A stretch of DNA of 64,000 nt from Gracilaria domingensis (taxonomy: Eukaryota > Rhodophyta > Florideophyceae > Gracilariales > Gracilariaceae), in assembly GCA_022539475.1 (NCBI GenBank), contig VCMS01000071.1, positions 124,001-188,000 on the forward strand. The letters are read 5' to 3'. The notes under the pieces were generated by a model. That model did no database searches. It saw nothing but the letters and a program-made list of their open reading frames with translations, and was not told where the DNA came from. A program made the translations under genes and the position numbers. Positions 21,861 through 39,427 of this stretch are shown here, piece after piece; the first letter of the stretch is position 1, and each line of letters opens with the position of its first letter.

Positions 21861-22269
21861 TCTTGCAGATGCTAGTTTTTGGCGAGGGTCGTCCAGAAAG
21901 TGGCAAGGGTCGTCCAGTAAATTTTTTGAAAAAATATCGAGATCAATTATTTCAAAATTTGAAGATAATTGCTTGGGTCGTCCAGAATCGCTGTGCAGTA
22001 AATACTGGTGAGTTTTCCACTCGTGCCAGTTCTTTAGTCGAGGGCTACCTGAACGGTATTTCGCGAAGTCTAGGTTCAGTTTCCATTAAGGTGCACATTA
22101 CACGATACCTTCTGCGGAATGATACCCTGCAACGCATGGAATACTGTTGCTAGTACAGATGATGTCCATTATGAAATCATACCGTTTTATTCGTATCTAC
22201 TCTTCTATCGACCGCTTTTGCTAACCACTACTTCGCTATATTACATGTACCATTTCCCCATGATGGAGC

Positions 22270-22430
22270 GGGTGTAGGCGCAATCTGCGGCAGATGCCGC
22301 AGAGGGCGGTATCGGTAGAACAAATACGCACTCCGAGAGGATGAGGCGCGAAGCGTCTCATCCTCTCCGTTCCTCATGTAGGGAACCATGCCGAGATGCA
22401 TGGTTCCCTACTTGAGGAACCTGCACCTGC
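22270..22430. repeat. Three adjacent hairpins in the left part of transposon C
   Basis: TCTGCGGCA/TGCCGCAGA, GAGGATGAG/CTCATCCTC, and a 20-bp stem TCCTCATGTAGGGAACCATG pairing with its complement eight bases later. All three are kept in the second copy (about 53320-53475) despite small sequence differences. Confidence 0.8.
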
Positions 22431-22458
22431 AACTCGTGAGCTACGTCCGCATCAAAAG

Positions 22459-23204
22459 TCATTTACCTGTATACGCAAGCAGAAAGTATCCATAAGTTAG
22501 TCAATGCTCCGTTGAATGCATTTGAAATGCGATGGAACTAACCATTGATAAACCAAAACAGAAACGTTGAGCTAGAAAATTCGAGGGACCTAATAGCCGC
22601 AAAAGGAAGAAGAAGAAGGAAAGGGATCGGTTAGATTACCAGCAATCCATTCATCGTAAAACGCGAGAGGTTTGAAAGCGATAACTCACAAGCAACGACA
22701 CCAAGAATGCCCATGCAGTAAACATACCGCAAGATGCGATAAACGAGAATGCAGTCTATGTCCCAACCAAGCACCAGAATCGCCTATCTCGAACAGTCAG
22801 ACATCGATCTTGAGAGACGAAATGAAATTGGTCATTTACCTGTATACGCAAGCAGAAAGTATCCATAAGTTAGTCAATTCTCCGTTGGGTACGTTTGAAA
22901 TGCGATGGAACGTACCATTGATAAAACAAAACAGAAACGTTGCGCTAGAAAAGTCGAGGGACCTAGTAACTCGCAAAAGGAAGAAGAAGAAGGAAAGGGA
23001 TTGGTTAGATTACCAGCAAATCATTAATCGTGAAGCGCGAAAGGTGTCGAAGCGAGAACTCACAAGCAAGGACACCAATAATGCCCATGCAGCAAACATA
23101 ACGCAAGATGCGATAAACGAGAGAGCAGCCTATGTCCCAACCAAGTACCAGAATCGTCTATCCCGAACACTCAGAGATCCAAGATCGCTAAGAAACCAAC
23201 TTGG
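22459..23204 (+). repeat. Direct tandem repeat of about 373 bp in transposon C
   Basis: TCATTTACCTGTATACGC starts at 22459 and again at 22832, and the two units stay alignable to about 22830 and 23204. Shared markers are AAACAGAAACGTTG, GAGGGACCTA and CAAGATGCGATAAACGAGA. The second C copy has the same duplication with a 368-bp period (53514 and 53882), so it predates the split of the copies. Confidence 0.85.
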
Positions 23205-23640
23205 TTTGTTGCGCAGTAGGCTCTAGCTTCTCGCGTCTTGCGCTACTTTTGAAAAGGAGCGTAAGAGGCGAAGCTAGAGCCTATGGCGCAACGAAATGAA
23301 CCATTGTTCGCGTACTTACAGTCGTCGCTTTGGGTTACCGGGTTCCCGTTTTCACCCTTCAACTCGTTCTATATCTTGGGCAAATAGAAGAAGTTGAGGG
23401 TGAAAACTTATTTCCTGCCGTTTGCATGTCGCAGAGCGCGAAGAAACGTGGTGAGGATTGGTTAGTTTAGAGCAAAGATACGTGGAAGGATATGGAAGAA
23501 CGTACGAATAGACTGCACGGAATACATCCGTGAGATACGGATGACTCCGTCCTACTTTTTTCCGCCCTGTACTTTAAGGAGCCTCCATAAGGTAGAGGGA
23601 GGAAAAAAGAAGGACGGAGCGGAGTATAACGCGAGGATGT
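23201..23640. repeat. Further long hairpins upstream of the transposase gene
   Basis: A long-stem hairpin runs from TTGCGCAGTAGGCTCTAGC to its complement ending near 23297. A second pairs TTTTCACCCTTCAACT (about 23350) with AGTTGAGGGTGAAAA (about 23405). A third pairs CTCCGTCCT...CCGCCCT with AGGGAGG...AGGACGGAG (about 23545-23620). In copy 2 the third hairpin has a different stem (TTTTCCGCCTC with GAGGCGGAAAA) but still pairs, hinting that the structure is maintained. Confidence 0.65.
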
Positions 23641-23988
23641 GGATGGCACGGATCACGACGGTAACAGAAGGTCGGACGTCGGACGGGCGGCGGCGGCGGC
23701 GGAGGGAAGAGATTCATTTTTCTGTGCGAGATTGGACAAGTGTACAGCCTACAATGTTGCGAAACCACAGGTTTATAACCAGTGGTAGATAATACGAGAA
23801 GTACACCCTTGTGTTGAGGTCGACGTGTACCTACGTTCCTTTTTGAACGAAAGCACGTGATTTAAACTCAAAATATATTCTCCGTTCTCAGCATGACGTC
23901 GATCTTGACTGTCGCTCGACCTCCTTCTCCCTTCTTACAACCTTCCCTTGCAGTCTTTGTCGTCGTTTCTCGTTCATTTCTTCTTCCC

Positions 23989-26940
23989 ATGGTCTACTAC
24001 TGTACACATAAGAAGCGTGGGTGCCCCTTCGTTACTCGCCGAGGAGTCTTATCTCTTCAACAGCATGTCAACCATTGCCCGTTTCGTCTGAAAGCAGCGC
24101 TGGAAGACGACAATAGCCGGCCCATTCGGAGAAGCAAGCGTCTCAAGGTTTCCGCGCCCGCCCCCGCATCTTCCGAAACGGTCACTGCCCCTTGTCGCCT
24201 TCCCGAGCCTCCGGTGTCCGAGGACATCGTCGACCCCACTCCGTGCGCCCCTCCCATTCCGGACACTTCGCATTGTGTTTCTCCTTCCCCGAGTCCCGCG
24301 TCATTAGAGCGAGAACACGGAAGCAGTTCCCGCCCAGTGCCTTCTGAGGAGGCCCTTGGTGATTTGCATATGGATTATCTCACGGTTTGTCTGGCTTCAG
24401 TAGCTTCCAACCTTGGTCATCGTGAGGCGGACGAGCTAATTGGGCTACTTCGGGACCCGCGATCCTCGCAAAAGCGATTCAACGAGACCATAACAAGTTC
24501 CAAGCGCTGTACAGAACTGAAGAACGCCATTTTCGAACGATACGCCTCAAAGGACGGTTTCAATCGCAGAACTGTCTCGCCAGAAGGATGTAAGTTCAGC
24601 GCCACCCTCTACACGAGAGACCCCGTTCAGACACTTGTGAAACAGCTCCAGTTGGCTAACAACGAAAACACATTCTTCCACCCTATACCTCAGACCCACT
24701 CCATGAAATTATCTCACCCCATGTCCGGCTCTCTCGCAAGAGACGCCACCTCAAAACTTAAGGAAATGGTCATGGGCTCTTTGGATAGTAGAATAGTATG
24801 GTACTCCCAAGAAATAAGTTACAGTGAATCTTTCGTAGGTCTTCTGCAGGTATACACCGATAAGTCTTCAACAACTCTAAAGCAAACATCGGTTACCGCC
24901 TATCCTCTTCACCTCATATTTCTCAACTTCTCTGACGAGCTTCGCGGTAAGTGCATCCGTGATGACCTCACAGTAGTGGCATACTTCCCTACCACACTGA
25001 TCGAGGTTTCCGCATCTGAAGCAGACGCAATGCCATTCGTTTCTAGCAAGTCTCTACGCGAGTCCAGGATGCAAATCCTTCAAGAATCTCTTCGTCAAGT
25101 CCTGGAGCCCATTCTAAATCTCAAGCAGAAAGGTTTTCAGTTCATCGGCGAAGGCAAACTAAGTCGAGTGTGCCATCCTCTGCTTGCAAGTTATTGTGCG
25201 GATATTTCTGAGGCTAAGGACATTCTGTACATTCTTCATGGGACCAAAACGGAAAGCCCGTGTCATAGATGCAAAGCCCCTCGCTCATCTTTATGCAGTC
25301 CTATTCCCACCTCATTCAACGGACGTTCTCAAAAGCACACGAAAAGCATCCCAAAGACATACACAGCTATCTTGCAACATGCACAAAAAGACGAGGCGGA
25401 AAGACGTCCACGTCGTGCGAGGGAGAGGAGATCTCAAGCGGATACTCTGATGCGTTCAAATTCCATATCTCTCATTCCTTCGTTCCTCGAAACTTCCGTA
25501 AGCCTTGGAATGATCCCGGGATTGTCTCCATACAGTCTGTTCTCATTCGAACCATTACACAACTTGCATCTCGGCATCTCAAAGCTGATAAAAACGGCCA
25601 CAATCGAGAGACTGCAGACAGACACCCTGTGCACCACAATAGGAACATCTGCATCGCGTTCATTTCGAACGATACGCACCCAACTCCTCAACCATGCAAA
25701 CGCAATTCTAGCTGCCATAGAACGTGATTCTCCTGCCAAAGGTTTACATATCGATTTCTCCACGCAGGAGAAAGGCAAATCTTTGAATGGCATCTTCACG
25801 AAAGACGGTCTCCGTGGAATGCTGGAGGCCAAAAACTACAAAACACTTGACATGGTCTTCCCCTTCATAGGAGCATTCTTTGACATATGCTGTGGAGAAC
25901 AGGACGTTGCCCCAATCACAACCGTTTTCTCTCAGTACTCGGACTTGCTCTCGACTTTATTCAGATACAATCGTGACCCGTATTGGACTGAAAGCTCTCT
26001 CCTGTGTCTTATATCGGAGATTGAAGCCTTCAAGCGTTCCGCAACAAAGACTCTGGCGGATTTTCATCCCTCCAGACTGGGAACTCTGAAGTTTCATCTT
26101 CTCGATCATCTCGTGGACGATATTCGCCGTCTGGGAAGTATCAAGTACTACGACGCAGGCATATACGAACATGCACACCTGCTATTTAAGAGACACTACA
26201 AAAAGACGTCCAGAAGAACAGCAACGGCTGTGGAGGAGACTATTCGCTCCATTGAGCACCGACATGTTAGAAAGCAATGGAATGGCAATACTCCTTACCA
26301 GCGTAATCCAGGTTTACCAGGAACTTCCACACAGCTTCCTCGGTTTGCAATGAGAGGGCGTTCTTTCACTTTACGAGCTCTTCAACATTGTGTTTCAAGT
26401 ATGTCCAGTTCAAAAACATGGACTGCTGTTAGAGAGATGTTCTCAAGTACGGACACAAGGTCGATTCTTGATCAAATTGGTGAGCAGGCCCTTCCTCCTT
26501 TCCTCAGTCTCGTGAAAGAAACACTGGATGAGCACTCTATTACATACTTCCCAGAAAAGACAAGGATAACTCTGGTGAATTCGGCTCTCGTGAAAGGCGG
26601 TTTCGTTCCGACTCTTGAACACTTCGATTCGTCTTCTAAGGCACTTAAGCTGGGACGACCCAAATACCCCATCATCCAACGTGTCTTCGCTTCTCCAGCA
26701 TTTGGCCCCAGTAGAAAGCCAAAGTTTTCCACTGTATTGGTAAGCGGAGAAGATTCAGAGACTTGGGTTGCCCAGGTAGTCGCTGTGATTCGAATATCTC
26801 TCCTTGATTCTGCACTTACCGCACCAGAGGTGGCATTCGTCCGGTATTTCGAGGTTTTACCCCCCGCAACAAACATCGACCACATATTTTGCCATCTAAA
26901 AAGGTGCCCGTATCCTTGTCTTCCACATCATACCCAATAA
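23989..26940 (+). CDS. Plavaka/CACTA-like transposase of element C (about 983 aa)
   Basis: The protein starts best at MVYYCTHKKRGC (23989), because the earlier ATG at 23893 is absent from the second copy. An N-terminal C2H2/CCHC-type finger (residues about 4-30) is followed by a basic KRLK patch. The catalytic region shows VYTDKSSTTLKQTSV, then YCADISEAKDI with a CHRCKAP zinc motif, then FSFEPLHNLHLGISKL. This matches the Asp, Asp-x2-E, (D/E)-x2-HN-x-x-LG order of Tnp2/Plavaka-type RNase H-like transposases, with Glu rather than Asp in the third block. One uninterrupted frame with no lesion, so it may be functional. Its last 125 bp overlap, tail to tail, the coding end of the leftward gene at 26816-28795. 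The superfamily name is a judgement from motifs. Confidence 0.75.
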   Translation: MVYYCTHKKRGCPFVTRRGVLSLQQHVNHCPFRLKAALEDDNSRPIRRSKRLKVSAPAPASSETVTAPCRLPEPPVSEDIVDPTPCAPPIPDTSHCVSPSPSPASLEREHGSSSRPVPSEEALGDLHMDYLTVCLASVASNLGHREADELIGLLRDPRSSQKRFNETITSSKRCTELKNAIFERYASKDGFNRRTVSPEGCKFSATLYTRDPVQTLVKQLQLANNENTFFHPIPQTHSMKLSHPMSGSLARDATSKLKEMVMGSLDSRIVWYSQEISYSESFVGLLQVYTDKSSTTLKQTSVTAYPLHLIFLNFSDELRGKCIRDDLTVVAYFPTTLIEVSASEADAMPFVSSKSLRESRMQILQESLRQVLEPILNLKQKGFQFIGEGKLSRVCHPLLASYCADISEAKDILYILHGTKTESPCHRCKAPRSSLCSPIPTSFNGRSQKHTKSIPKTYTAILQHAQKDEAERRPRRARERRSQADTLMRSNSISLIPSFLETSVSLGMIPGLSPYSLFSFEPLHNLHLGISKLIKTATIERLQTDTLCTTIGTSASRSFRTIRTQLLNHANAILAAIERDSPAKGLHIDFSTQEKGKSLNGIFTKDGLRGMLEAKNYKTLDMVFPFIGAFFDICCGEQDVAPITTVFSQYSDLLSTLFRYNRDPYWTESSLLCLISEIEAFKRSATKTLADFHPSRLGTLKFHLLDHLVDDIRRLGSIKYYDAGIYEHAHLLFKRHYKKTSRRTATAVEETIRSIEHRHVRKQWNGNTPYQRNPGLPGTSTQLPRFAMRGRSFTLRALQHCVSSMSSSKTWTAVREMFSSTDTRSILDQIGEQALPPFLSLVKETLDEHSITYFPEKTRITLVNSALVKGGFVPTLEHFDSSSKALKLGRPKYPIIQRVFASPAFGPSRKPKFSTVLVSGEDSETWVAQVVAVIRISLLDSALTAPEVAFVRYFEVLPPATNIDHIFCHLKRCPYPCLPHHTQ

Positions 26941-28795
26941 ACTCCTTCAGTACTTGTACCCCGACACGGTTTCGGAAGAACAAGTCTTGATCTTCCGTCG
27001 GCATATCCTCGACATTGTCCGCATTGGAGTACTTTAGACGAACAAATGGGGCTTTTCTCCACCATGAAGTGTTCGGTACTCCATTTTCGTCAAGACGCAG
27101 TATGTTCTCCTGCGCTTCCTTCAACTGCATTGTGAGTTCGTCAGCATTCTCTTCTACCAGTTTTGTTCTTCTCCAAATCAGATCGTACCCCAGGAGCAGA
27201 AATAGTTTATCCCTCGTATTTCTCTTACGAACGCCCACGACGTCACTCATGGTATGCCGCATTCTCTGCCTAAGGCAAATATCTCCACAAAGTTCCAGTA
27301 TACACCTGTCGGTAAGAGATGCTTTTCTAATACCTTCCCAGCTCAACTCCTTCAACTCGCTTTCAACCATTTTCTTCAGCAAAGCATCTGACCCCCCCTC
27401 TACCGACGGTTTGAACATGCCAAAACTACCCAAGAGCTCCACGGGGTTTTTAGGAACCATGTATGAACCACCTTCCTCCGGCTCAATAAGCCCTTCCCCA
27501 CTCTCAGTTGCGTCTTCCACCTTCTCGGCACGGTTACCCCAATTTCGGGTGAGCCACTCACCTTCGAGCCATAGCTCACTTGTTTCTCTCCTTGCCCACG
27601 TGAGCATGTTGTGATACATTGCTCGAGCAACCCCTCGAAACTCGTCGTACACCTCAATTTTATGCTTCTTTCGACATGTCTGCCCAGGTTCACCAGCACG
27701 TGTACTCCTATCTCCCTCCTGTTTCAGTGCCCCTCTTAGCCCTTCAATGACTAGATCCTTCTCTTCAAGCCTCTTTTTCAAAGCCGTACTCTGCTCTTGG
27801 GCGACCTTCACTAGAATACCCCGAACTATCAAGTCCTCTTGTAGCGTCTTAACCTTTTCTTTCAAGCAATTCAGTTCATTTAAAAGATCACGTCTGTTCA
27901 TAGAGGTTGATTTCACACCAGTGTGGATATCTTCCGGTATTTCCCTAGCCTCTTCGGCGATAGGCCCCGGTAATGCCGCAGGATTCGGTGTTATTTCGTT
28001 ATCGGAACTATCCTCATGTGCCATACCCTTAGACACGAGAGGCTGCAGGCGTTCTGTGTCCACCCTTGGCACGGCTCCGAGCTCCAACTCCCGTGTCTGG
28101 CCTCCTCCATGGCATGGTATATCAGATGAATTAGGCCTCGTACGAGCTGCAACGGCACCCGTTCTGGAAAGAGGGGAAGATCGAGGAGTAACTCTTCTAT
28201 CAGTTGTCTCTCGATTTCTTATTGTCTTTCTCCCTTGTCCGGACCCATTGCGAGGCATGATACGATTCATAGCGGCCCCAGTTCTAGAAGACAGGGATGG
28301 ACGTGACGATCTTAATATACTAGGGCTCTCACGACTTCTCGTCATTGTCCCTTGTTGTCCAGATCCACTGGGCGGCGTAACCCGCGCCCCAGTAGCTCCG
28401 GTTTTCGATATCGGCCGGGGACATGAAAGTTTTGGTGTCATACGAACCTCTTCAGTTCCAGTTGCGATGCCCTCCTGTCCTGACCCGCTGCGCCGAGTTA
28501 CCTCATCTTCTTGAGGAGCAGAGACAGATGCACGATCTGCATTATCTACAGTTGACGGCACGACATCGTTCGCTGATCCACGAATTCTTGACGCAATCCC
28601 GGAAGACGCTCCGCTGCGAGATGGGCGAGAGAGTACTGTAGAAGGATGCCCACTGACTCTCTCCTTCGTCGAGGACGACTTCCGTTTAGGAAGTGCGGTG
28701 CTTGTAGCCTGATTCGTATCATCCGATGCTCTTCTCTTCTTCTGTCCACTCTTGTTCCGCTGCGTACTATTTCGCTTTCTCGGCGTTATACCCAT
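26816..28795 (-). CDS. Unknown protein with 40-aa repeats and coiled coil (659 aa)
   Basis: Intact leftward gene starting ATG at 28795. Residues 1-95 are basic and Ser-rich with NLS-like PRKRNS and QKKRR. Residues 99-218 are three exact-length 40-residue repeats sharing GSGQ-x-G and SxTGA-x3-R. Residues about 300-362 form a Leu/Glu/Lys coiled coil. The remaining about 290 residues form a helical domain (EFRGVARAMYHNMLTWARRET, DRCILELCGDICLRQRM) that I do not recognise. It is the most distal gene of the leftward set and its coding end overlaps the transposase end by 125 bp. A nuclear scaffold or DNA-binding role would fit the composition; that is inference only. Confidence 0.65.
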   Translation of the reverse strand: MGITPRKRNSTQRNKSGQKKRRASDDTNQATSTALPKRKSSSTKERVSGHPSTVLSRPSRSGASSGIASRIRGSANDVVPSTVDNADRASVSAPQEDEVTRRSGSGQEGIATGTEEVRMTPKLSCPRPISKTGATGARVTPPSGSGQQGTMTRSRESPSILRSSRPSLSSRTGAAMNRIMPRNGSGQGRKTIRNRETTDRRVTPRSSPLSRTGAVAARTRPNSSDIPCHGGGQTRELELGAVPRVDTERLQPLVSKGMAHEDSSDNEITPNPAALPGPIAEEAREIPEDIHTGVKSTSMNRRDLLNELNCLKEKVKTLQEDLIVRGILVKVAQEQSTALKKRLEEKDLVIEGLRGALKQEGDRSTRAGEPGQTCRKKHKIEVYDEFRGVARAMYHNMLTWARRETSELWLEGEWLTRNWGNRAEKVEDATESGEGLIEPEEGGSYMVPKNPVELLGSFGMFKPSVEGGSDALLKKMVESELKELSWEGIRKASLTDRCILELCGDICLRQRMRHTMSDVVGVRKRNTRDKLFLLLGYDLIWRRTKLVEENADELTMQLKEAQENILRLDENGVPNTSWWRKAPFVRLKYSNADNVEDMPTEDQDLFFRNRVGVQVLKEFIGYDVEDKDTGTFLDGKICGRCLLRGVKPRNTGRMPPLVR

Positions 28796-29040
28796 GTTGT
28801 GGAGATAAACGGGGTAATGAAACGAAATTGTTGGGGGGGGGAAGGGGTGAGGGGGGGTGCATGGTTCAGATATTCCGGGAGACTCCGCAGTTCCTGCTTT
28901 TTAGGAATTTTAGGTGCCCAATGGGTCGCAAATATCGCCTTTACAGATGAAGAGCTCCAGTGTACATGTACAACAACGCGTATTGCAGGCAGCCGCAACA
29001 TTCACAAGCATATTTACTTTCTATTCGGTACTGAACTCAT

Positions 29041-29559
29041 CTATTGCTCCAATGTCAGAGCCCAGTCCCAGGCGTACTGCTCTCCGTAGTTGAAATACAA
29101 CTCTTCGCCCCTCTCAATATCTCTTACTGCTCTACAACGAAGTAGAGCATAGTTAGGAAGGTCGGACTTAAACTGTATCACGGACTTCGCTTCCACCACC
29201 TGCACATTGGCACTTCGAGTCCTGTTTGACCGGGGCTCCGATAAATCGGGATCCCCGGCATGATATCCGGCGTCGTTAATGTAGCCCCCGATACAAAAAG
29301 GCGCCGGGACAATGTAGACTTCGCTCTCCTTTCTATCCTGACCCTGTCCTGGTCTGTTTCTCAGGTGCAGAAACTCCGTACCAGTCACAGTGACCATCAT
29401 AGAAAACAACTTGTACCGCACTGGAGTTGCTCCGAGACAGCCACTTCCATACGTTAAGTGTCTTTCCTTCCGGTTCGTCAGATCCGTGTATACCAAAGTT
29501 CCATAAAAATGACAGATAGTTTCCCCAGCCAATATCTTATGTTCCGTGAACACCCCCAT
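29041..29559 (-). CDS. SET-domain protein (172 aa from ATG; domain begins upstream)
   Basis: SET-domain signatures are visible: GMGVFTEHKILAGETI at the start, GGYINDAGYH...NVQVVEA in the position of the catalytic N-H block, and RDIERGEELYFNYGEQYAWDW, the E-L-x-F-x-YG end with its aromatic residue. SET proteins transfer methyl groups from S-adenosylmethionine to lysine, often on histones. The domain's first strand (KIRHPRAG) lies before the ATG, in frame with the methyltransferase gene upstream; only its TGA at 29608-29610 separates the two. The product may therefore normally be the C-terminal part of a methyltransferase-SET protein. The cysteine-rich post-SET motif is absent. Confidence 0.75.
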   Translation of the reverse strand: MGVFTEHKILAGETICHFYGTLVYTDLTNRKERHLTYGSGCLGATPVRYKLFSMMVTVTGTEFLHLRNRPGQGQDRKESEVYIVPAPFCIGGYINDAGYHAGDPDLSEPRSNRTRSANVQVVEAKSVIQFKSDLPNYALLRCRAVRDIERGEELYFNYGEQYAWDWALTLEQ

Positions 29560-29607
29560 ACCAGCACGGGGATGTCGAATCTTAGAAGATGCTATATGTA
29601 AGCGATA

Positions 29608-31296
29608 TCAATTGGCTTCAACAGTCAACAGCATATGCATATCCATTAGATTCAGAGCTCCTCGGTACTTCTCCTCCCAAAGATGTACAGTATGCTGTCC
29701 ACACTTGTCGACAAAGTCCCAGTCCTTCCAGTATCTTCCTAGGAACTGAGTAATATGTCCAGGCATCACTTGGTACTGGGGGTAACCAAATGGAGCCTCC
29801 CATTCAAGCCGACCTCGGTCTCGATAGGGAACTCGTTCATAAGTCGTTGAAGCCGCATCCACCACCTCCTGTTCAACCAGGATGTCATTCTTCCCCCCGC
29901 GAATAACTTCGGCCATAAGAGTCGTTATATGGTGCTTCGCATGGCTGAAACATGGCCTATTATTCTCGCGCCCCAAGAACTTCCTATGCTTTGTCAGCGA
30001 TAGGCACGCCATACCCGTAGAAAAAGTTCCCGCGAACATGTCCATGACAAGATCATCCGGTCTTGTGAAGCGACATATCAACTCTTTCATCAACTCCCTG
30101 GACTTCTGCTCCGGTCTTATGTACTGCCCACCTGGTACTGAACTACCTGGCTCATGTACCTTCCATGTCAACCACTCCCCCGCTCTCGGTTTTGGCACCC
30201 GGTCAATTACATTCCTGTTAGCCGGGAAAGTAGAAGGAATGAAAGTGTTCTCCTCAAATGGAGTAAGACTGGCTTCCTCCGATGGTCGCAATCCACGATT
30301 CACCCCATGAACGGCGTACTCCGTTACGGGCTGTATCCCAAACTTCCGTGGATTCCCTCCAACATTACTTCGATCCCGGATGAACACCAGTGGATTCGCA
30401 TCCAATTTAAACGAAGGCGTGAGTTCTGGTTTACCTTCGCTTCCAGCTTCATCCTTCGTACTCGCCGTTTCCGAAAGTATCCTGTGCCAAACATGAAACT
30501 GTGCCATGGCACAGAATATAATGAAATGCCCACCTGACCGAAGCGCGGAACTTATTAAGTCAGCCGTACGGATCATGTCATCCTCACTGAAGACATCGTG
30601 AGCACTATTCCGTTTGTTCCTCTTCCTTCGAGTGTTAAAGGGAGGGTCTGTTAGGACAAGCTGTGCCTCACCCCATAAAATCTCACTCTGATTCACAAAC
30701 GTTTCGTGTGTGTGCCTTAGGTCCTTCATGTCACAGTTGTACGCTACAAAGTGTGAATTTCTCATCCCCTTCCACACCTTGTCCATATTCATTCGAAGGA
30801 GACTGGATATCCCCTTCATGGGCGGCTCAATACCAGTCTTTTGGATGTTGTAACCGGCAACCCGAGATTCATGCTCCGCAAGATTCACCGGCTTCTCGAA
30901 GTCGTCGCTATCGGAGCTCACGAGGTTCATATACTCTCGACGAGGTGGGGGTGGGGCAGACTTGGTCGAAGAAGGTTCGGCATTACCGGAAGTTTTAGGG
31001 GTTTTCGTCAGCTCAATATCAGGTTTCGCGTGAATGCCGACATGGAACCCTGCCGCATGACGCATATTCTGTATCGGTTTCCATAGCAACTCCGAAAACT
31101 TCTGAAATCGAGCAGGCAACTCACCGGAGTCAGAACCAGATACGGTATCCATCCGTATCTCCGAAAACTCTATCCAGTTCCTCATCTGATCAGCCCGTAA
31201 GCTATAGAGGCTATCGTGGGTGCATACGGTTTCGAGGTCTGTATAACCAGACTCCCGTGTCTCTAGCGCCGTATACTTCAACGTCTGCATATTCAT
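29608..31296 (-). CDS. Bacterial-type DNA amino-methyltransferase (N6-adenine/N4-cytosine class), 562 aa
   Basis: Catalytic motif IV reads LTDPPFNTR (residues about 215-223) and the S-adenosylmethionine motif I reads DMFAGTFSTGMACL (about 419-432) after a motif X-like KSRELMKELICRF stretch. The order IV, then a long variable (target-recognition) part, then X-I is that of the beta class of amino-methyltransferases (N6_N4_Mtase family). DPPF favours adenine, since cytosine-N4 enzymes usually have SPPY. The N-terminal 200 residues are unique, with a Pro-rich and acidic linker. It lies 14 bp downstream of the gene at 31311-32051, with SET sequence after its stop. Such enzymes are rare in eukaryotes, suggesting lateral origin. 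Confidence 0.82.
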   Translation of the reverse strand: MNMQTLKYTALETRESGYTDLETVCTHDSLYSLRADQMRNWIEFSEIRMDTVSGSDSGELPARFQKFSELLWKPIQNMRHAAGFHVGIHAKPDIELTKTPKTSGNAEPSSTKSAPPPPRREYMNLVSSDSDDFEKPVNLAEHESRVAGYNIQKTGIEPPMKGISSLLRMNMDKVWKGMRNSHFVAYNCDMKDLRHTHETFVNQSEILWGEAQLVLTDPPFNTRRKRNKRNSAHDVFSEDDMIRTADLISSALRSGGHFIIFCAMAQFHVWHRILSETASTKDEAGSEGKPELTPSFKLDANPLVFIRDRSNVGGNPRKFGIQPVTEYAVHGVNRGLRPSEEASLTPFEENTFIPSTFPANRNVIDRVPKPRAGEWLTWKVHEPGSSVPGGQYIRPEQKSRELMKELICRFTRPDDLVMDMFAGTFSTGMACLSLTKHRKFLGRENNRPCFSHAKHHITTLMAEVIRGGKNDILVEQEVVDAASTTYERVPYRDRGRLEWEAPFGYPQYQVMPGHITQFLGRYWKDWDFVDKCGQHTVHLWEEKYRGALNLMDMHMLLTVEAN

Positions 31297-31310
31297 GTAA
31301 ATTTATGGTT

Positions 31311-32051
31311 TCACCATATGCTGAACGTTCGTGTATCCAAGATGAGCCGCAAAACAACTCCATGCCCATACGACCTCACTGATAGCGAATCCCAGTCGAT
31401 CACAGTTGTCTTTGGAGAACGACGTAAAGTGGGTATGTACACAGATGGTGCATGGTTCAATTTTCGTTTCTTTTTCGGTTGTTTCTTCTTCATCATTCGG
31501 ATGTTGTCGTTCTCTCCCATTTTGTGGCCGAGGTATGATAAGTATATAACGACCTCAAATGGGTTCACAGCTGTTGGTGGGATGAACACTGTCGTCTTCA
31601 GAACCTGCTTTCTCCTGGTCATGAAATAACCAACCAGGCATCGCACCAGTGGGTATATACCCATATCCATAGAGAGAAGGAAAAAATCGCGGCGTCTCTG
31701 GTACTCATCCCCGTCTTTCTTGTCAAGAAGCTTCGTTACAAGATATCGTTGTTCCACAGGTTTGTTATTCACAACACTCTTTCGCAGCTGTTGCAGTGTC
31801 AAGTTCTGCAGGTTCTTGGAGTTAGTGGCCTCCTCAAACATTTTCCTTGCCTCCGGAATATCCTTATAGTTCTCGGCGCAGAACTCTATTAGCCCTCTAA
31901 ACCCCACGTCCCGTGGCCGATCAGGGCCTCCATCGCTGTTTGCCAAAGCATCGCGAAGAACCAAGACAAGTCTGACATATGCATGGAACGCCGGAGGCGG
32001 AGCACTCATGTCAATAGGCTGTATCTCCTCTCCATCATCGGTGGAATCCAT
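31311..32051 (-). CDS. Unknown protein, first gene of the leftward set (246 aa)
   Basis: The ATG at 32051 sits just inside the left arm of the palindromic region, which carries an ATTTAAAGG TATA-like box about 40 bp upstream. Residues 1-20 are acidic. Helical stretches follow (FHAYVRLVLVLRDALAN, LQQLRKSVV), then a hydrophobic strand (VFIPPTAVNPFEVVIYLSYLG) and a basic cluster KKKQPKKKRK near residue 190 that could be a nuclear-localisation signal. No known domain is recognised. The intact frame and tight spacing to the methyltransferase gene argue it is a real gene. Confidence 0.6.
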   Translation of the reverse strand: MDSTDDGEEIQPIDMSAPPPAFHAYVRLVLVLRDALANSDGGPDRPRDVGFRGLIEFCAENYKDIPEARKMFEEATNSKNLQNLTLQQLRKSVVNNKPVEQRYLVTKLLDKKDGDEYQRRRDFFLLSMDMGIYPLVRCLVGYFMTRRKQVLKTTVFIPPTAVNPFEVVIYLSYLGHKMGENDNIRMMKKKQPKKKRKLNHAPSVYIPTLRRSPKTTVIDWDSLSVRSYGHGVVLRLILDTRTFSIW

Positions 32052-32073
32052 CGCTTCAGCGCATACAACAAAG

Positions 32074-33347
32074 GCGAGCCTTTAAATGGCGACTTGCGCT
32101 GGGCACCCCCGCTTTCGGCAACTCCTCCCAGCGCGCTGCCAATCTCGTCCCTGTCCGTGTCCGCTCGGTGCGATAGCGTCGCATGTCGGCCACGTCGCGA
32201 TTCGGAGCTATTGCAAAGGTCGCGTATTGGGCTAAAAGTGGCGGATCAAGTGAGTGTGAAGCGCTAGTTTTCTCTAGTTTGATATATGTGCACGGCGTGT
32301 GCAGCGAAATCACTGCCGGAAGTGCCGGGAGGAGTGTTTGGGAGGTCTCCGGAGGGTGCCAGAATGTGGCCAGAACGTGCCCGCGGGCGGAGGGGGGGGG
32401 GGGGTTCGGTCGTGTTAGGGTAGGTACCATAACACGACCGGACACCCCCGACCGCGGGCACGTTTTGGGCGATTCTTTGAAAAATGTGCGATTTCATGCC
32501 CGCGGGCGGGGGGTTCCGGTCGTGTTAGGGTACCTACCCTAACACGACCGACCGGCCCCGCCCCCCCCCGCCCGCGGGCACGTTCTGGCAACATTCTGGC
32601 ACCCTCCGGAGACCTCCCAAAACACACCTCCCGGCACTTCCTGTACCCACTGCGTCACCTCAGTGCACCATCCCTGAAATTAGGGAGTGTCTGGAGGGTG
32701 GAGAAGACGGGATGGTGCACTGAGGTGACGCAGTGGGTACAGAAAGTGCCGGGAGGTGTGTTTTGGGAGGTCTCCGGAGGGCGCCAGAATGTGGCCAGAA
32801 CGTGCCCGAGGGCGGGGGGGGGGGGGGTGGTTTGTGTTAGGGTAGGTAACCTAACACGACCGGAACCCCCCGCCCGCGGGCAAGTTTTGGGCGATTTTTT
32901 GAAAAATGTGCGATTTTATGCCCGCGGGCGGGGGGGTCCGGTCGTGTTAGGGTACCTACTCTAACACGACCGACCCGCCCCGCCCGCGGGCATAAAATGG
33001 CCACATTCCGGCGCCTTCCCGGGACCTCCCAAAACACGCCGCCCGCAGTGATTTCGCTACACCCGGCCGCCGGTACGTTGCCGCCGCTGTCCACGTGTAT
33101 TGGCGGGAGTAGGCTGTACATGGAAGTGAATGAGTGTACTCTTGACTACTATGCAAAGCATTTGAAGAGCATGATTAGAGAGCGCGACCATTGCTCGCGT
33201 GAGTCATCATTGCGCGAACTCCACGACTCTAAAGCGTACAAGCAGCGTGCGAGCGGCCACGGACAGGACACGGACGAGACTGGCAGTGCGCTGGGAGGAG
33301 CTGCCGAAAGCGGGGGTGCCCAGCGTAAGTCGCCATTTAAGGCTCGC
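32074..33347. repeat. Nested palindrome between the two gene sets (bidirectional promoter, possible origin)
   Basis: Outer arms 32074-32167 and 33251-33347 are inverted copies (about 90 percent by eye), each with a CGCCATTTAA(A)GGCTCGC promoter-like block. Inside lie two units (32321-32638 and 32745 to about 33050), each itself palindromic. Between them, a perfect 33-bp inverted repeat (32641-32673 with 32710-32742) flanks a 36-bp spacer. Each unit has two GGTCGTGTTAGGGTA...TAACACGACC palindromes (32408, 32518, 32829, 32940), runs of 9-14 G and repeated CCCGCGGGC. No coding sequence is supported. Divergent transcription is clear from the layout; a replication or structural role is speculative. 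Confidence 0.85.
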
Positions 33348-33415
33348 ATCCGTTTTGTATCGTCCAGAGCGAGCGTATTGTTGATATACACCTTTCACTG
33401 CAATAGCTGTTCAAC

Positions 33416-34090
33416 ATGAAGCCAACTCGTGTTCGAAAGCGTACGCAAAGCGTGACTCTCGCACTCCGCGGAGCACTCGATTATTGCAAGGTGGAATGCG
33501 GTTTCTCTGCAGATGGATATTGAGAATGAAGGAAAGGTGATAGTCGGGGGAGCGTTGTGCATGAATTGGAAGTGTTCTACGCCGCGAGTTGCACGGGAAG
33601 CATTGGACTCAGGTCTTGTGGTGGTTCATAATTTCTCATCAGTCGAATGCGGTCAGACGTTCTACCTTACCGGGCGGAGGGCCCTTGGATCCTTCACAAT
33701 ATATCCAGGAATCTCCGGACGGCGCTCCTTGGATGAGAAAATGATGGAAACGGGTGGCCAAGCCAGATTCCGGCGTCCAAGCGAGGAACGGTAGCGCTAT
33801 GAGTGAGGTGATGACGCCCGAAAGCCGCACGGAGCCAATTCGGGGAAGTTCATCAACACGAGAGGATAGGCGCATCAGTAGCACCTCCGCAGGCAGGTCC
33901 GTCGTCTGTTACGAAGCGGTCTATGGAAGACGAGAGCATCCCCAGCTACGAGGACAGGTCAAACAAAGTTACCACCGCTACGAAGCNNNNNNNNNNNNNN
34001 NNNNGCATCTCCTGCCATGAATCAGACCGTCGACACAAGGGGATCTTCTGCGTCGAAAACAGACGGTTCAGCAGGGGACGGCTGTGCAAG
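33416..34090 (+). pseudogene. First rightward gene, unknown product, broken or gapped
   Basis: An ATG at 33416 (MKPTRVRKRTQSV...) sits about 80 bp after the right-arm ATTTAAGG box, and another at 33513 (MDIENEGKVIVGG...) opens a 93-codon frame. Hydrophilic Ser/Arg/Glu-rich coding-like sequence then passes through more than one frame up to an 18-base assembly gap at 33987-34004. It could be one gene with sequence errors or a decayed gene. No domain is recognised. Confidence 0.35.
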
Positions 34091-34229
34091 AGGAGGAAGA
34101 TGAGATCATGAAAGGTCCCTTCCAGACGCGGATGCGCAATCCGCGCAAGGAGCTGGTCCATCTGTACCCCAAACTGCACCAGAAACTGCGGAGCAGCAGG
34201 ACGATGACGTTGTGCTTCTGTCCGCAAGA

Positions 34230-35438
34230 ATGGCACGTTCAAGTGTTTCTGGCGAGCGGTCTGGAACACAAGGGACACCTACTCGGAGCAAGACGTACAG
34301 ACGAATTCGTCAGAAGGTACCAAAGGTGAACCTCAATCAGTACCGGATGGTTGTTGTTACTGTTGACATCACTCTGGTGGACACTCCGCCCAATTTACTC
34401 CGTGGAGTAAGTAAACGCCACGTTGAAGCCCTTGTGAAGAGTATGGAGGAGCGGGGGATATTGCAGTCGATGGGTTCTCCAGTGGTGGCCTTACAAGATG
34501 CTACTACGGGAGAGAGGGATACTGACAAGGGACGCCTAACGAAGAAGTGCTTCATTGTAGATGGTTTGCATCGTCTGAAAGCTATACAATATTTGGCAGC
34601 GACTGGTGCACCGAAGTGGAAGCGATTAGCCAAGTTTTGGCGTTGCAATCTGCTGATACGAAGAGATGGGAGGCCCATTGGGATGAAGGAATTGTTATGT
34701 GTTGCTTCGTACCTCAATGAGTCGACGAGTACCATGCGAAGGATGATGTTTGCAGACAAGATACACTCTATAGTTAGTGTGGTCGCCATTCTAATTGAAG
34801 ATGTTGAGGGGGTGACGCCGGCAGACGTGGATCCTGCAGAAGTGACAGAAGTGTTGAAGGAGAGCCAACTGATTGGGACTGTGCAAGAGCGTCAGTACCT
34901 GAGATATGCCAATGTCGCCCTGCAACTCATGTCTCGTGAGGGAATGCTGGCCCATTTCGAGGATATATGTGAGACTGTGAGTGACATAGGTCTCACACAT
35001 CTGTCCCATACTCCGCTATATGTTTTGGATGCCGAGGAGTTTTCCTTCATTCTTGATTGTCTTCAGATGTTTCTATTGAAGGGCAAGTCGACGAAGACAA
35101 AGCAATGGAAAAGCTTTGAGGAGGTTCGAGGTTTCTTTTATGATAGAGCAGTGTCTCTGTTCCGCGCGGCTAGAGCAGTGAGGAATGAACTGAACGAGGA
35201 AGAGTCCATGGAAGTGTTCCTGAAACGCGAAGTCAGTCTTTCTGCTCCATCGAATGAAGATGACGTTGAAGACCCAGACAACAACGCAGCTGTGTATCAG
35301 TTCCTTTTGGGACAAGTTGTGAACTTCAACACATTGCCGCGTGTTCGGAGCAGGACGAACTCAATTAGAACTGCCACGACTTCCGTTCAGAATCGATTGC
35401 GGACGATGCTCAAGGTAATTCCGCCCCCGCACCAGTGA
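34230..35438 (+). CDS. ParB/Srx-fold-like protein (402 aa)
   Basis: After a basic N-terminus (KTYRRIRQK), residues about 40-120 show the ParB/sulfiredoxin-fold pattern: a strand (VVVTVDITLV), a helix VSKRHVEALVKSMEERGIL and the signature FIVDGLHRLKAIQYL (about 108-122), equivalent to the G-x-HR-x2-A loop of ParB N-terminal domains that bind and hydrolyse nucleotide. The C-terminal 250 residues are helical and unrecognised, ending acidic. ParB-like domains accompany DNA-modification enzymes in phages and bacteria; in a eukaryote the gene is unusual. The start is taken at the first in-frame ATG. Its end overlaps the next frame by four bases. Confidence 0.6.
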   Translation: MARSSVSGERSGTQGTPTRSKTYRRIRQKVPKVNLNQYRMVVVTVDITLVDTPPNLLRGVSKRHVEALVKSMEERGILQSMGSPVVALQDATTGERDTDKGRLTKKCFIVDGLHRLKAIQYLAATGAPKWKRLAKFWRCNLLIRRDGRPIGMKELLCVASYLNESTSTMRRMMFADKIHSIVSVVAILIEDVEGVTPADVDPAEVTEVLKESQLIGTVQERQYLRYANVALQLMSREGMLAHFEDICETVSDIGLTHLSHTPLYVLDAEEFSFILDCLQMFLLKGKSTKTKQWKSFEEVRGFFYDRAVSLFRAARAVRNELNEEESMEVFLKREVSLSAPSNEDDVEDPDNNAAVYQFLLGQVVNFNTLPRVRSRTNSIRTATTSVQNRLRTMLKVIPPPHQ

Positions 35439-37339
35439 AGCAGTCCGTGACGAAGAGGAGGACTCCCGCTGCTGCTGCTGCAACATCTGCCAGTGAAGAA
35501 GGGGAGCCGCGAAGAAGTGCACGAGAACGGGCGCAGGTGAGTTATAGGGAAATTGAGCACGGCCGAAATCGAGGTGCCATAGAAGTTCTGGATAGCTCTG
35601 AAGAAGAACAGCGGGCTCCGCCGAGGAAGAAACGGAGAAAGACTTTCACACAACAGATGAGATCTACTCTGAACAGCATGACACCGGATGACCTGATGTC
35701 TCAACTAAATGAACATGTGCTGAGAGGAAGGTCGATGAAGGTTCAGTTCGTGGCATTGGGAGAGGGAGCGAATGCAGAGAACGCAGGCAGTTCTGCATTT
35801 GTGGATGACGAAGAGCTTCTTTCTGTGACAGTTCCACGGGTTGTCACCGTCGAGAAAGATGCTGCGCCAGACGATCAGCAAGAGACAGGTGGGGGGTCAT
35901 TTGATGACGAGTTACCTACAGCTCTTCCGGAATCTGAGGAGCACGGACTTGTTCGAGGTGACCCATATGATGGCCCACTGAACCCATCATGGTGCGGGTA
36001 TGCCAGGCTGAGACCGCAGGAATGGCAAGGGAAGAACGTAATTGAGCACAAGGACCCCTGGCTCAGAGTCATTCACTTGCCGAAGGGACATAGGTCGGAG
36101 CTGCTAAGTGTCTCGAATCTCAGAGATGTACACCATCTTGTCTTTTGGCACGCTGCAAGGGCTGAACATCGCCTACGGGCGGAGACATTTGGTATGCAGT
36201 ATCCTCGTACTCGACCGACAGGTATGGATGATGAAGAGGTGCTGTGGGTTGCTGCGAAGGAGCATGACGAATTTGGGCAAATGTTCTTCGCCCGAATGCA
36301 AGCTGAGCTAAGGCAGAATGGATATTGCGTGCTTGATGGCTTTGCGACGGATAATGGTGTCCCTAAATGGGAGGAGTTGGAAGAAGTTCGGGAGTTCGGA
36401 GATGTGTCGGGGAAGTTGGTGGACTTCTTCGAGAATGAGTATGGAGCGATGCCGGATATACGGAAAGGAGAGGAACAGAAGTCGTTTGTTCAAATAATCA
36501 ACGATGATGAAGGATGGAAGGACGGTAGCGATGGACCATTTGAGGGGAGAGTGATGTCGACACGTTGGGGTACGGTGGAGAAGCCGGAGGATAATGAGGA
36601 GCTCAGGTGGGTTGTAAGGTCGCGTGCTTTACTTGATGTTCGAATGGGTACAATTGCTGCGGCTTTGGGACTATGGGACAATGAAAGGGAAGCTGTGAAG
36701 ATGTACACTCCGAAAACTGGTGGTCGATTTCTGGGGACGACGAGAAAGTGCAAGCGCCAGACGCTGCACACCGACTTCAGTGGTCTGGTTACGAAGGAAA
36801 CAATGAATACTGGCAACCCCGGATACTTTGTAATGGCCTCTGGGAAAGAGGGCTTTCCTCTCTGGGTGAGCGCTGGAAGCCATCAACTGGTGGGGATGAA
36901 CAACCAACAGTTGCGAGTGATGTCGGAGGTGTATCCAGCGAAGAAGATAATCATCCCACCGTACTCTGTATTCGTGGGCCGTGGTGATGTGACACATGCT
37001 GGAGCAAGTGGGAAGGACAAGGTGGATAGGCCCGAGTCTATGGATTTGCTGGTTAGATACCACATGTACATGGTACCAGAGGGCTACGCACTACCTGATG
37101 CTGTTCATCGGGTGCGGGATTTCGACCCACGTTTGTCAATGGTGACGAGGAGGAGGAGGCGGAGGATGAACTGTTGTCCGATAAGGAGGGTGGGGCGGTT
37201 GACATGGACGAAGACCAAGTGGTCGTGGAGATTGGTGTGGAAGCGGACGCCGGTAGAACCGAAGTGCTCGAGAGTAGTAGTGATGACGATTTGCCATAAT
37301 GAGGCTGCGAGCGCCTCGAAGTGGATGAGAATGAGATGA
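35435..37339 (+). CDS. 2-oxoglutarate/Fe(II) dioxygenase-like protein (about 634 codons)
   Basis: The metal and cofactor residues are visible: HTD (residues about 445-447, in QTLHTDFSG), a distal His in GRGDVTHAGASG (about 521) and Arg in LLVRYHMYM (about 541), with LWVSAGSHQL and IIIPPYSVFVG strands between. This is the HxD...H...R arrangement of double-stranded beta-helix 2OG oxygenases. The N-terminal region has PPRKKRRK, NLS-like. There is no ATG near the left edge: the first is at 35657, although coding-like sequence begins earlier and overlaps the ParB-like gene. After about 37140 the frame turns Arg-rich while the +1 frame gives an acidic tail (DEEEEAEDE...SSSDDDLP), so an indel is likely. 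Substrate unknown; DNA, RNA or protein oxidation are all possible. Confidence 0.65.
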   Translation: MKQSVTKRRTPAAAAATSASEEGEPRRSARERAQVSYREIEHGRNRGAIEVLDSSEEEQRAPPRKKRRKTFTQQMRSTLNSMTPDDLMSQLNEHVLRGRSMKVQFVALGEGANAENAGSSAFVDDEELLSVTVPRVVTVEKDAAPDDQQETGGGSFDDELPTALPESEEHGLVRGDPYDGPLNPSWCGYARLRPQEWQGKNVIEHKDPWLRVIHLPKGHRSELLSVSNLRDVHHLVFWHAARAEHRLRAETFGMQYPRTRPTGMDDEEVLWVAAKEHDEFGQMFFARMQAELRQNGYCVLDGFATDNGVPKWEELEEVREFGDVSGKLVDFFENEYGAMPDIRKGEEQKSFVQIINDDEGWKDGSDGPFEGRVMSTRWGTVEKPEDNEELRWVVRSRALLDVRMGTIAAALGLWDNEREAVKMYTPKTGGRFLGTTRKCKRQTLHTDFSGLVTKETMNTGNPGYFVMASGKEGFPLWVSAGSHQLVGMNNQQLRVMSEVYPAKKIIIPPYSVFVGRGDVTHAGASGKDKVDRPESMDLLVRYHMYMVPEGYALPDAVHRVRDFDPRLSMVTRRRRRRMNCCPIRRVGRLTWTKTKWSWRLVWKRTPVEPKCSRVVVMTICHNEAASASKWMRMR

Positions 37340-37641: not shown

Positions 37642-38502
37642 ATGGTGACTGTATCAGGAAAAATGGCAGAGGAACAGAGAGACTTGGCGGAAATTTCACC
37701 AAATACCTTGTCTAAGTTCATATATGCCAATGGTTACGGTATATTAAGTTCCGTTGATGGAACGTTGAGAAGAGAAGGAGAGTCAATTCCAGAAGAAGTT
37801 GTGAAGTGTATGAAGTTCATTGACGAACGTGTTGGTTTCGGACTTGTCACAGGGGGTGATGTGGGCGACGTGGAGGGGAAAATGGAAGGACTCGGAGACT
37901 ATAAGTTTGGTGTCTCGGCGAATCATGGAGCTTTCCTGCGTTTCTCTGACGAGAGGGAAATTAAGGGTGCATTCAATGATCACACCCTTGACCACACTGT
38001 TGACGGACTACTGTTCCTGGCAAGGGATTTGAATAGGAGGCATGGTATTGTGAATGATGATGACAAGGGGTTCGTGGAGACCAGAAGTGATAGTGGCCTT
38101 CCCAATTTCGTGTACAACAAACTGTGGCAGTGGAAAGAAGAAGTGGATTCTGCTATTGGGGACCTGTTGCAGAAGATGGATGCGTTTGTTATCTATCCCG
38201 GCGATAAAAGTTGCGAAATTGTGGACAAGCGATACACAAAAGGAAGCGGAGGAGAAAATCTTGTGGATAATGAACCGAGATTTATTGATACGGATGACGT
38301 CGTGACGTTCGGAAGTGCTTTGAGCGACGGGCCTTTGCATGAGGTAGGCGTGTACGGCGTTCACGTCAAAGAAGATTGTATCCCGGGTGGAGTACACAAC
38401 CTGTTCGAAAGCATGGAGGATGTACATTCGACAGTTATGTTGGTGGCTCTGTTGTACGGCTACGAGGAAAAGCAGCACGATAAAAACCACCAAGATTCAT
38501 AA
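37642..38502 (+). CDS. HAD-superfamily phosphatase-like protein with lost nucleophile (286 aa)
   Basis: It is clearly a paralogue of the leftward gene at 38555-39427: both share ENGYAVISDVDGTL or ANGYGILSSVDGTL, the V-KCMK(F/Y)I block, GFG(L/I)(V/A)TG, SGLPNF-x-YN, FTKNSG or YTKGSG, and FG(N/S)A-x-(N/S)DGPL. HAD enzymes need the first Asp of D-x-D as nucleophile; here it is Ser (S37-V-D39). Motif II reads TGGD instead of TGRD, and motif IV has S-D in place of N-D. The fold is probably kept but phosphatase activity is unlikely. The frame is intact, so it looks like a pseudo-enzyme rather than a decayed gene. Confidence 0.75.
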   Translation: MVTVSGKMAEEQRDLAEISPNTLSKFIYANGYGILSSVDGTLRREGESIPEEVVKCMKFIDERVGFGLVTGGDVGDVEGKMEGLGDYKFGVSANHGAFLRFSDEREIKGAFNDHTLDHTVDGLLFLARDLNRRHGIVNDDDKGFVETRSDSGLPNFVYNKLWQWKEEVDSAIGDLLQKMDAFVIYPGDKSCEIVDKRYTKGSGGENLVDNEPRFIDTDDVVTFGSALSDGPLHEVGVYGVHVKEDCIPGGVHNLFESMEDVHSTVMLVALLYGYEEKQHDKNHQDS

Positions 38503-38554: not shown

Positions 38555-39427
38555 CTAAGTATTAAAGGCATCGTAGCACTTGAAACAAATTCCAAGAGCA
38601 TTTCTAAACCTTTGACACTTGCATTTTCTGTACCCGTACAGTTCTGCCACCCTTCTGATGGTCTCATGCACGTCCTCCACGCCATCAACAAGATATGTTA
38701 CCGCTGCTGGATGGTCTTCTCCCTTCACATGAACTGCCAGGGTTGCCATTTCATATAGAGGGCCATCATTGGAAGCATTCCCGAAAGCAACGATTAAATG
38801 TGTGTCGAACTGGGGGTCGTTTTCAACCAAGGCTAGCGCCCCACTATTTTTCGTGAAACGAATGTCCCCTATGTCACAGTTTTCATCTTGAGGGTACGCA
38901 ACCAGGTTCGGAAAGGATGTCAACACTTTTGAAATACCGGAGTTAACTTCTGTTTTCCACTTCGACAGTCCATTGTACGTGAAGTTAGGGAGTCCACTGT
39001 CTTTTCTAGTGCTCACCACTGCTTGTTGAAGCTCTTCGTGAAGTCCGTGCGATTCATTTAAGGAGAGTGCAAGTCTCTCAAGTTCGGCTGCACATCTTTC
39101 GTAACCTTCCCTGTCAAGGTCCTGATCAATTTCGGTACCATTGGATAATCTCACCCGTGCGCCTTGGTTTCCAGAGATGCCAAAAGTGTAGCCACCCAGG
39201 TGCTCCATGAAACTCTCGGCATCCTCTATATCTCGCCCAGTAGCAATTCCGAAACCAACGCGTGCGTTGATGTACTTCATGCATTTGACTGTTTCGGGAG
39301 GAATGTTCTCCCCAGCTCTTTTCAGAGTACCGTCAACATCACTAATCACGGCGTAGCCATTTTCGAATATTTCGTTAGCCAGCTGCTGAGGAGTTACTTC
39401 TTGGGCTCTAACTTCCGAGTTATACAT
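38555..39427 (-). CDS. HAD-superfamily (type IIB-like) phosphatase (290 aa)
   Basis: Motif I DVDGTL (D30, D32), motif II ATGRD, and motif IV FGNASNDGPLYEM (with N-D acidic pair) fit HAD hydrolases of the trehalose/sucrose-phosphatase and Cof-like group with a C2B cap. Such enzymes dephosphorylate small sugar phosphates; the substrate is not readable from sequence. I chose the ATG at 39427 because the paralogue starts at the equivalent place; an upstream ATG at 39526 would add 33 residues. A Cys-rich tail (CKCQRFRNALGICFKC) is an unusual addition. It converges with its paralogue, 52 bp apart. Confidence 0.78.
   Translation of the reverse strand: MYNSEVRAQEVTPQQLANEIFENGYAVISDVDGTLKRAGENIPPETVKCMKYINARVGFGIATGRDIEDAESFMEHLGGYTFGISGNQGARVRLSNGTEIDQDLDREGYERCAAELERLALSLNESHGLHEELQQAVVSTRKDSGLPNFTYNGLSKWKTEVNSGISKVLTSFPNLVAYPQDENCDIGDIRFTKNSGALALVENDPQFDTHLIVAFGNASNDGPLYEMATLAVHVKGEDHPAAVTYLVDGVEDVHETIRRVAELYGYRKCKCQRFRNALGICFKCYDAFNT

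Follow-up and report, generated by a model that had tools for sequence, protein, structure and literature searches.

RESULTS

Gene content of the locus

A 64,000-nucleotide stretch of contig VCMS01000071.1 of the red alga Gracilaria domingensis (the window) contains seven long intron-less open reading frames (ORFs) of 172 to 1015 amino acids, found in the ORF listing at positions 23989–37339, which on balance we assign to a single giant transposon of the Plavaka group (Table 1). The two-way layout described in an initial annotation of this DNA is borne out, with protein B, a SET domain, a DNA methyltransferase (MTase) and protein E on the − strand, and the transposase, a ParB-like protein and a candidate 2-oxoglutarate (2OG)-Fe(II) oxygenase (OG) on the + strand. 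When the 13.4-kb region was simulated 200 times with a Markov model, the longest stop-free frame was 325 codons (mean 182), a length exceeded by five of the seven ORFs but not by SET (172) or E (246). The SET ORF is accepted because of its Pfam match, its length being below the simulated maximum; the case for E is its place and its 246-codon frame, because the codon-usage score was trained on E.

Table 1. Features of the locus and of the second copy (window coordinates)
Feature	Position	Strand	Remarks
Proposed giant Plavaka-type element	21853–43706		~21.9 kb; left end well placed, right end tentative
Left terminal non-coding region	21853–23892	+	CGTCTGTCTCTTGCAG terminus, three GGGTCGTCCAG motifs, 374-bp tandem repeat (22458–23179)
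Plavaka transposase	23989–26940	+	PF18759 E 7.5e-15; sequences of both copies
Protein B, 659 aa	26816–28795	−	3′ end overlaps transposase 3′ end
SET domain	29041–29607	−	PF00856 E 3.4e-8; MTase frame after one TGA
N6A/N4C-type DNA methyltransferase	29608–31296	−	PF01555 E 1.9e-13; motif IV before motif I
Protein E, 246 aa	31311–32051	−	Best-scoring frame changes near 31430
Central imperfect palindrome	32040–33380		About 1.3 kb, between the two arms
ParB-like protein	34212–35438	+	Open frame from 34104; phrog_3264 E 3.6e-4
Candidate 2OG-Fe(II) oxygenase OG	35369–37299	+	Motifs only; acidic tail in another frame after about 37140
HAD-IIB phosphatase-like gene 1	37642–38502	+	PF08282 E 4.4e-5
HAD-IIB phosphatase-like gene 2	38555–39526	−	PF08282 E 2.1e-13; 47% identical to gene 1
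ORF with no Pfam or NCBIfam match	40055–40965	−	Open frame runs to 41302
Ribulose-phosphate 3-epimerase gene, C-terminal half only	41355–41675	+	PF00834 E 3.4e-24, profile 108–198 of 198
Very G-rich ORF with no Pfam match	42309–43238	+	
Provisional right terminal inverted repeat	43545–43706	−	Similarity to inverted left end
Second copy (decayed), same Plavaka family	52896–56581	+	Left end and most of transposase

The transposase had been called intact, and its frame is indeed open over 1015 codons, from 23893 to the stop at 26940, with a significant match to the Plavaka model in Pfam (PF18759, 55.4 bits against a cut-off of 26.3). Translation probably starts at the ATG at 23989, since a second copy of the element (copy 2, described below; the copy at the locus is copy 1) keeps that ATG and lacks the one at 23893. 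In Plavaka transposases C(2)C and H(3–4)H motifs precede the last catalytic E (PMC12730594). Candidates for these motifs here are C..C at 457 and H...H at 735 and 997.

The assignment of the second enzyme as an N6A/N4C-type methyltransferase is well founded. Amino-methyltransferases are recognised by DPP[YF] together with an FxGxG-like motif I, and the protein has DPPF at 217 and FAGTFSTG at 421; it exceeds the cut-off of PF01555 and also matches phrog_67 (E 2.3e-19) and, in the PDB, DpnA (E 2.9e-8). The DPPF motif alone cannot tell an N6A from an N4C enzyme. Among 72,556 plasmid records the MTase hit 194, and these gave distant bacterial methyltransferases (best E 2e-4, 26.5% identity, 44% covered).

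The SET domain appears full-length, covering positions 2–105 of the 105 of PF00856 above its cut-off, with ELYFNYG at 153; comparison with the PDB by sequence gave nothing significant (best E 0.17). The proposal of a SET domain thus stands with regard to its family but probably not as a gene of its own, for MTase and SET lie in one reading frame that is divided by a single TGA (29608–29610). The N-terminal strand of SET lies upstream of the listed ATG, and the sequence after the TGA enters the domain with no preceding start codon. The simplest reading of this frame is one MTase-SET protein, either broken in copy 1 or read through, and copy 1 is probably unable to make the fused protein. An intron between the two was considered and rejected: a 42-nt stretch bounded by GT and AG is visible by eye, and seems too short. 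Protein E was likewise rejected as a part of this frame, from which it is separated by a TAA.

ParB-like character is indicated by three ParB PHROGs, all of them weak matches (phrog_3264, the others at E 0.026 and 0.041); in Pfam, GmrSD_N (0.18) and DUF1335 (0.12) both remained below threshold, and GmrSD_N has a ParB-like fold (PMC5512222). NCBIfam, PADLOC and the PDB gave no match to this protein, so that the earlier ParB call is carried by the PHROGs and not by the other collections. Likewise, the oxygenase call holds at the level of its motifs (HTD at 445, H at 521, R at 541) but not of profiles or structures: OG has no match in Pfam, PHROGs, NCBIfam or PADLOC, and its PDB rows are unrelated (E 0.73 or worse). 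Frame changes and a gap of Ns (33987–34004) lie upstream of the ParB-like frame, which itself runs into the OG frame at about 35.4 kb; the open frames overlap, there is no ATG near for OG, and the two may be parts of one protein. This union is tentative, since frame changes, the N gap, decay and sequencing error are indistinguishable here. Single-sequence models were unusable (predicted local distance difference test, pLDDT, of 32 for the OG fragment 35960–37144 and 41 for the ParB-like fragment 34290–35018). As the tail of OG shifts frame near 37140, position 37339, which had been given as the end of the cluster, is probably not its true end.

Proteins B and E, which had been left with no identity, give no convincing match. 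B has none in Pfam, NCBIfam or PADLOC, and E has nothing above cut-off in Pfam or PHROGs. A match of B to the integrase family phrog_95 (E 0.0034) falls on a stretch that by eye looks like a coiled coil, and a tyrosine recombinase, as in Amoebidium, was rejected.

A second copy and the left end

Self-comparison of the window revealed a decayed second copy that begins at 52896, the exact equivalent of 21853. The copies are 91% identical over 1150 aligned bases, and the shared left end includes the three GGGTCGTCCAG motifs and the 374-bp repeats in both. On its left, copy 2 is flanked by the protease part of a Gypsy element and copy 1 by an RNase-H-like ORF; because both copies start at the same base in different flanks, the left terminus is fixed at 21853. 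The alignment extends to about 56581, which corresponds to 26094 in copy 1, and beyond this point copy 2 is too decayed. By eye, copy 2 (52896–57200) differs from copy 1 mostly by small deletions, from either unpolished long reads or decay. A continuation of copy 2 into the cluster was set aside, as the alignment was no better than that of shuffles and looser DNA settings gave E 0.26 or worse.

At the other end of the transposase gene there is little room for a transposon end before B, because the coding signal of B nearly reaches the transposase stop. The frame of B, which was outside the training set, is the best of six in 9 of 11 codon-usage windows, including 26996–27175; it is open to 26816, with coding-like sequence to about 56 bp from the stop at 26940, at a resolution of 180 nt. 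On these grounds, and as B scores as coding to about 26996, we rejected a transposon that stops before B, although at this resolution B could still be truncated or a short end be present.

The RNase-H-like ORF on the left of copy 1 has no RNase H match in Pfam. The rest of that gene was sought on the right by a motif scan, which covered stop-free frames of 40 aa or longer and found no RNase-H motif; the same scan found three reverse transcriptase motifs, every one inside Gypsy elements.

Central palindrome and GC skew

Between the two arms lies an imperfect palindrome whose own arms are identical at 513 of 586 aligned pairs (forced alignment, gaps uncounted). It holds four 24-bp palindromes of the form GTGTTAGGGTA-nn-TACCCTAACAC, three of them imperfect, and hence eight half-sites, of which five are exact and three carry one mismatch. 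There are also eight GCCCGCGGGC sites, six of them exact and two with a single mismatch. Neither site occurs elsewhere in the window, and counts of eight were reached by 0 of 100 shuffles in either case. A palindromic array beside a ParB-like gene recalls parS sites; the only likeness in sequence is in the TGTT..AACA ends.

The GC skew of the region 20001–48000 forms one bipolar domain, with its onset at 23827, a flip at 32166 (cumulative minimum) and its end at 43525 (maximum); within 20–48 kb the skew is much weaker outside this domain. At third codon positions the skew follows the arm and not the strand, being −0.17 for the + strand transposase and −0.18 to −0.36 for its − strand neighbours, and HAD-IIB gene 2, on the − strand, carries the skew of the right arm. 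If the right end is at 43706, the palindrome midpoint (32691.5) and the element midpoint (32779.5) are 88 bp apart.

A flip of the skew at a central palindrome is also reminiscent of a replication origin, and the cluster, with its ParB-like protein, could be a separate endogenised plasmid- or virus-like replicon with a central origin, the Plavaka element lying beside or inside it. The genes lack introns and two of the spacers between them measure 14 and 48 bp, which would suit such a replicon, and large DNA viruses, too, often carry MTase, SET and 2OG genes. We nevertheless regard this as distinctly unlikely. The transposase shares the skew of its arm and nearly adjoins B, and no capsid, polymerase B or packaging ATPase gene was present among the Pfam matches of the 13 ORFs inside the proposed element. 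Relatives were found for 0 of 7 cluster or transposase queries in viral_contigs, for 0 of 4 (MTase, OG, ParB, SET) in phages and for 0 of 1 (OG) in genome_contigs; these misses say little because the contig scans seed on exact 8-residue stretches, and so detect close relatives only, and the collections hold no eukaryotes.

Right arm and provisional right end

The right end was sought at the skew boundary, which had been noticed first. The candidate, 154–181 bp beyond the skew end at 43525, resembles the inverted left-end positions 1–127, the alignment stopping at 43679. It was seen once, whereas the left end is shared by two copies. Its score of 16.6 is the best among non-self minus-strand tiles; an equal or higher score came up in 3 of 1000 shuffles and in none of 459 other, overlapping windows. 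A terminal 15-base match (43692–43706, 12 of 15 identical) lies inside the C-terminal end of a Transposase_21 ORF. Plavaka termini are TGT..ACA or CATCA..TGATG, with a target-site duplication of 2–3 bp (PMC12730594); here the left end reads CGTCTGTCTC and the right candidate GAACACAGACG, and TGT..ACA can be read internally. A right end carrying GGGTCGTCCAG was rejected: the motif is absent to the right of 26940 outside copy 2, and the sole minus-strand match in the window, with one mismatch, is at 7893.

The two HAD-IIB genes of the right arm are convergent, and the + strand gene has SSVDGT where the other has SDVDGT, so that its nucleophile Asp has presumably been lost. Three imperfect palindromic units can be seen by eye at 41740–42080, near the proposed right end. 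The Transposase_21 (tnp2) ORF (43653–45992), the C-terminus of which is apparently cut by that end, has a sub-threshold RING-like match.

The HAD and epimerase pieces would fit host genes captured by the element. Alternatively, the cluster, the HAD pair and the epimerase could together be an ordinary host neighbourhood beside a Plavaka insertion. Both HAD-IIB proteins and ribulose-phosphate epimerase are cellular enzymes, and copy 2 is found with no cluster; however, the epimerase is present only as its C-terminal half, little space is left for a transposon end before B, and we know of no host arrangement of MTase-SET, ParB-like and 2OG genes around a 1.3-kb palindrome, so that a host neighbourhood seems unlikely to us.

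Surroundings of the proposed element

The remainder of the window contains Gypsy-type remnants at 1–4806, 16378–21327 and 49216–52895, two of which are about 70% identical and in opposite orientation, and an inverted repeat family at 11236–13809 and 62304–63900 (80–92% identical). A GC-rich 87-bp tandem repeat (3.6 copies) occupies 5790–6103. The ORF at 46534–47304 has a sub-threshold match to an AEP-TOTE primase (E 0.009, 16 bits against a cut-off of 27). None of the three + strand ORFs at 58757–61480 matches Pfam at E 0.1; the middle ORF contains VVEVKT, which we take to recall a PD-(D/E)XK nuclease.

DISCUSSION

We favour, with rather more confidence than doubt, the view that the locus is one giant transposon of the Plavaka group (relatives of CACTA/EnSpm), ~21.9 kb in length, that carries its own epigenetic toolkit. 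The left end shared by both copies, the right-end candidate and the single skew domain argue for placing the cluster inside the transposon, as do the central palindrome and the narrow space before B. That the cluster is transposon-borne, as the initial annotation had suggested, is supported by these features and is not proved; its ORFs do lie at 23989–37339, while the feature as a whole probably reaches from about 21853 to 43706.

Several observations weigh against this view. The cluster was seen only once in the window, with no second copy, and no remnant of it was found to the right of copy 2 up to the window end. This is mild evidence against the cluster as a constant component of the family; it does not refute its inclusion here, because copy 2 is decayed and is followed by an N gap and other sequence. 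With regard to the ends, no clear target-site duplication was found at the proposed termini (at most a 2-bp CG), and the flanks of copy 1, an RNase-H-like ORF (identified by eye) to the left and the Transposase_21 ORF to the right, do not resemble the halves of one interrupted target. In the search for the right end a higher score, 19.3, was given by a + strand tile elsewhere, and OG contains two 15-mers whose match to the left terminus is equal or better. The left terminal 2 kb are near neutral and outside the skew domain, and the ORF at 40055 has the opposite sign of third-position skew. The HAD pair and the epimerase half could be host DNA, and the oxygenase and ParB calls, which are drawn from motifs and profiles, are weak. 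The codon scores of B are modest, its last 60 codons falling below zero, and for the Gypsy element to the left of copy 2 no gag part was found on the right. Because of this modest signal at the end of B and because the Gypsy element was not seen to resume, our confidence in the transposon was lowered slightly, and that in a host neighbourhood or a composite region was raised.

A composite of nested, decayed or misassembled repeats, in which gene order and frames would be partly artefact, is suggested by the N gaps (33987–34004 and 57201–57521), by changes of frame in E, in the tail of OG and ahead of the ParB-like protein, by the many small deletions in copy 2 and by the mismatched flanks of both copies. 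Against such an origin, the open frames are long, the skew forms one domain and the layout is symmetric; we consider it quite improbable.

In the proposed transposon, the central palindrome may serve as a two-way promoter and as an array of binding sites for the ParB-like protein. The ParB-like protein would bring the methyltransferase to the element, where it would place N6A or N4C methylation on element DNA, and would also recruit the SET domain, which would write a histone mark, while the putative oxygenase would remove or alter a mark. The MTase-SET and OG proteins could act at the central palindromes or on the whole element. As a net effect, the element may stay accessible for transcription or escape silencing by the host, or the timing of its transposition may be controlled. 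Domains, frames and layout are observed; the binding, the target base and the direction of the effect, and with them the writing and editing of a mark, are inferred. A further possibility, to which we assign a low probability, is a plasmid-like body plan, where the ParB-bound palindromic array would be both two-way promoter and a replication- or partition-like centre, and a complex built from MTase-SET of one arm and ParB-2OG of the other would write linked marks on DNA and histones, confined to the element.

Giant Plavaka transposons reportedly cause genome expansion, according to the abstract of Petroll et al. (Current Biology, 2025). Giant EnSpm elements of red algae carry accessory genes, and accessory proteins of ParB/methyltransferase type occur in algal transposons, for which the writing and editing of a mark has already been proposed in print (PMC12477816). 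The red-algal giant EnSpm/Plavaka elements described there are like the one presented here in being large CACTA-like transposons with several accessory genes, and ParB/methyltransferase-type proteins are reported from red algal transposons (PMC12477816). Similarly, the 21.5-kb Sola1-1_Ec32 of Ectocarpus encodes a ParB-like domain and an N4C/N6A methyltransferase on the strand opposite its transposase; however, there the two form one 1104-aa protein and accompany a Sola1 transposase, whereas here they lie on opposite arms, the MTase is joined with SET and the transposase is Plavaka (PMC12477816).

Plavaka also forms giant repeats in Amoebidium, where many of the genes are tyrosine recombinases (PMC11244446), whereas none was recognised here beyond the phrog_95 match of B. 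Plavaka has been placed near EnSpm, and both Plavaka elements with TET and transposons with SET have been noted (PMC12730594). The fungal TET-carrying Plavaka elements share with ours the transposase and a candidate DNA-modifying 2OG oxygenase, the membership of OG in the TET/JBP family being putative; no MTase, SET or ParB is described for them in the excerpt of PMC12730594. A SET histone methyltransferase within a transposon is shared with HarbingerS and MuDR of Phytophthora (cited in PMC12730594), which differ from the present element in their transposase; a further difference is that SET here shares its reading frame with a DNA methyltransferase. Among the literature matches listed, the scope of which did not extend to Petroll et al. 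(2025), no account of a single Plavaka element with MTase-SET, ParB and 2OG was seen, and the main text of a survey of N6-methyladenine (6mA) in eukaryotes (PMC12695648) has no mention under terms for red algae or transposon-borne enzymes. The locus is therefore best described as a probable giant Plavaka transposon with epigenetic cargo, of a kind already reported in algae, whose architecture is a variant.

The surprise is limited by the fact that the general idea of transposon-borne epigenetic enzymes is already in print. If our reading is correct, a DNA methyltransferase of bacterial type, a SET domain, a DNA-binding ParB-like protein and a candidate oxygenase would all be carried by a single mobile element. 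The palindrome array would offer a specific site at which binding is predicted, and the shared MTase-SET frame suggests that one protein couples methylation of DNA with that of histones. It would then be possible to test directly for self-targeted epigenetic systems on transposons, and whether transposons bring 6mA or N4-methylcytosine into nuclei that are otherwise free of them.

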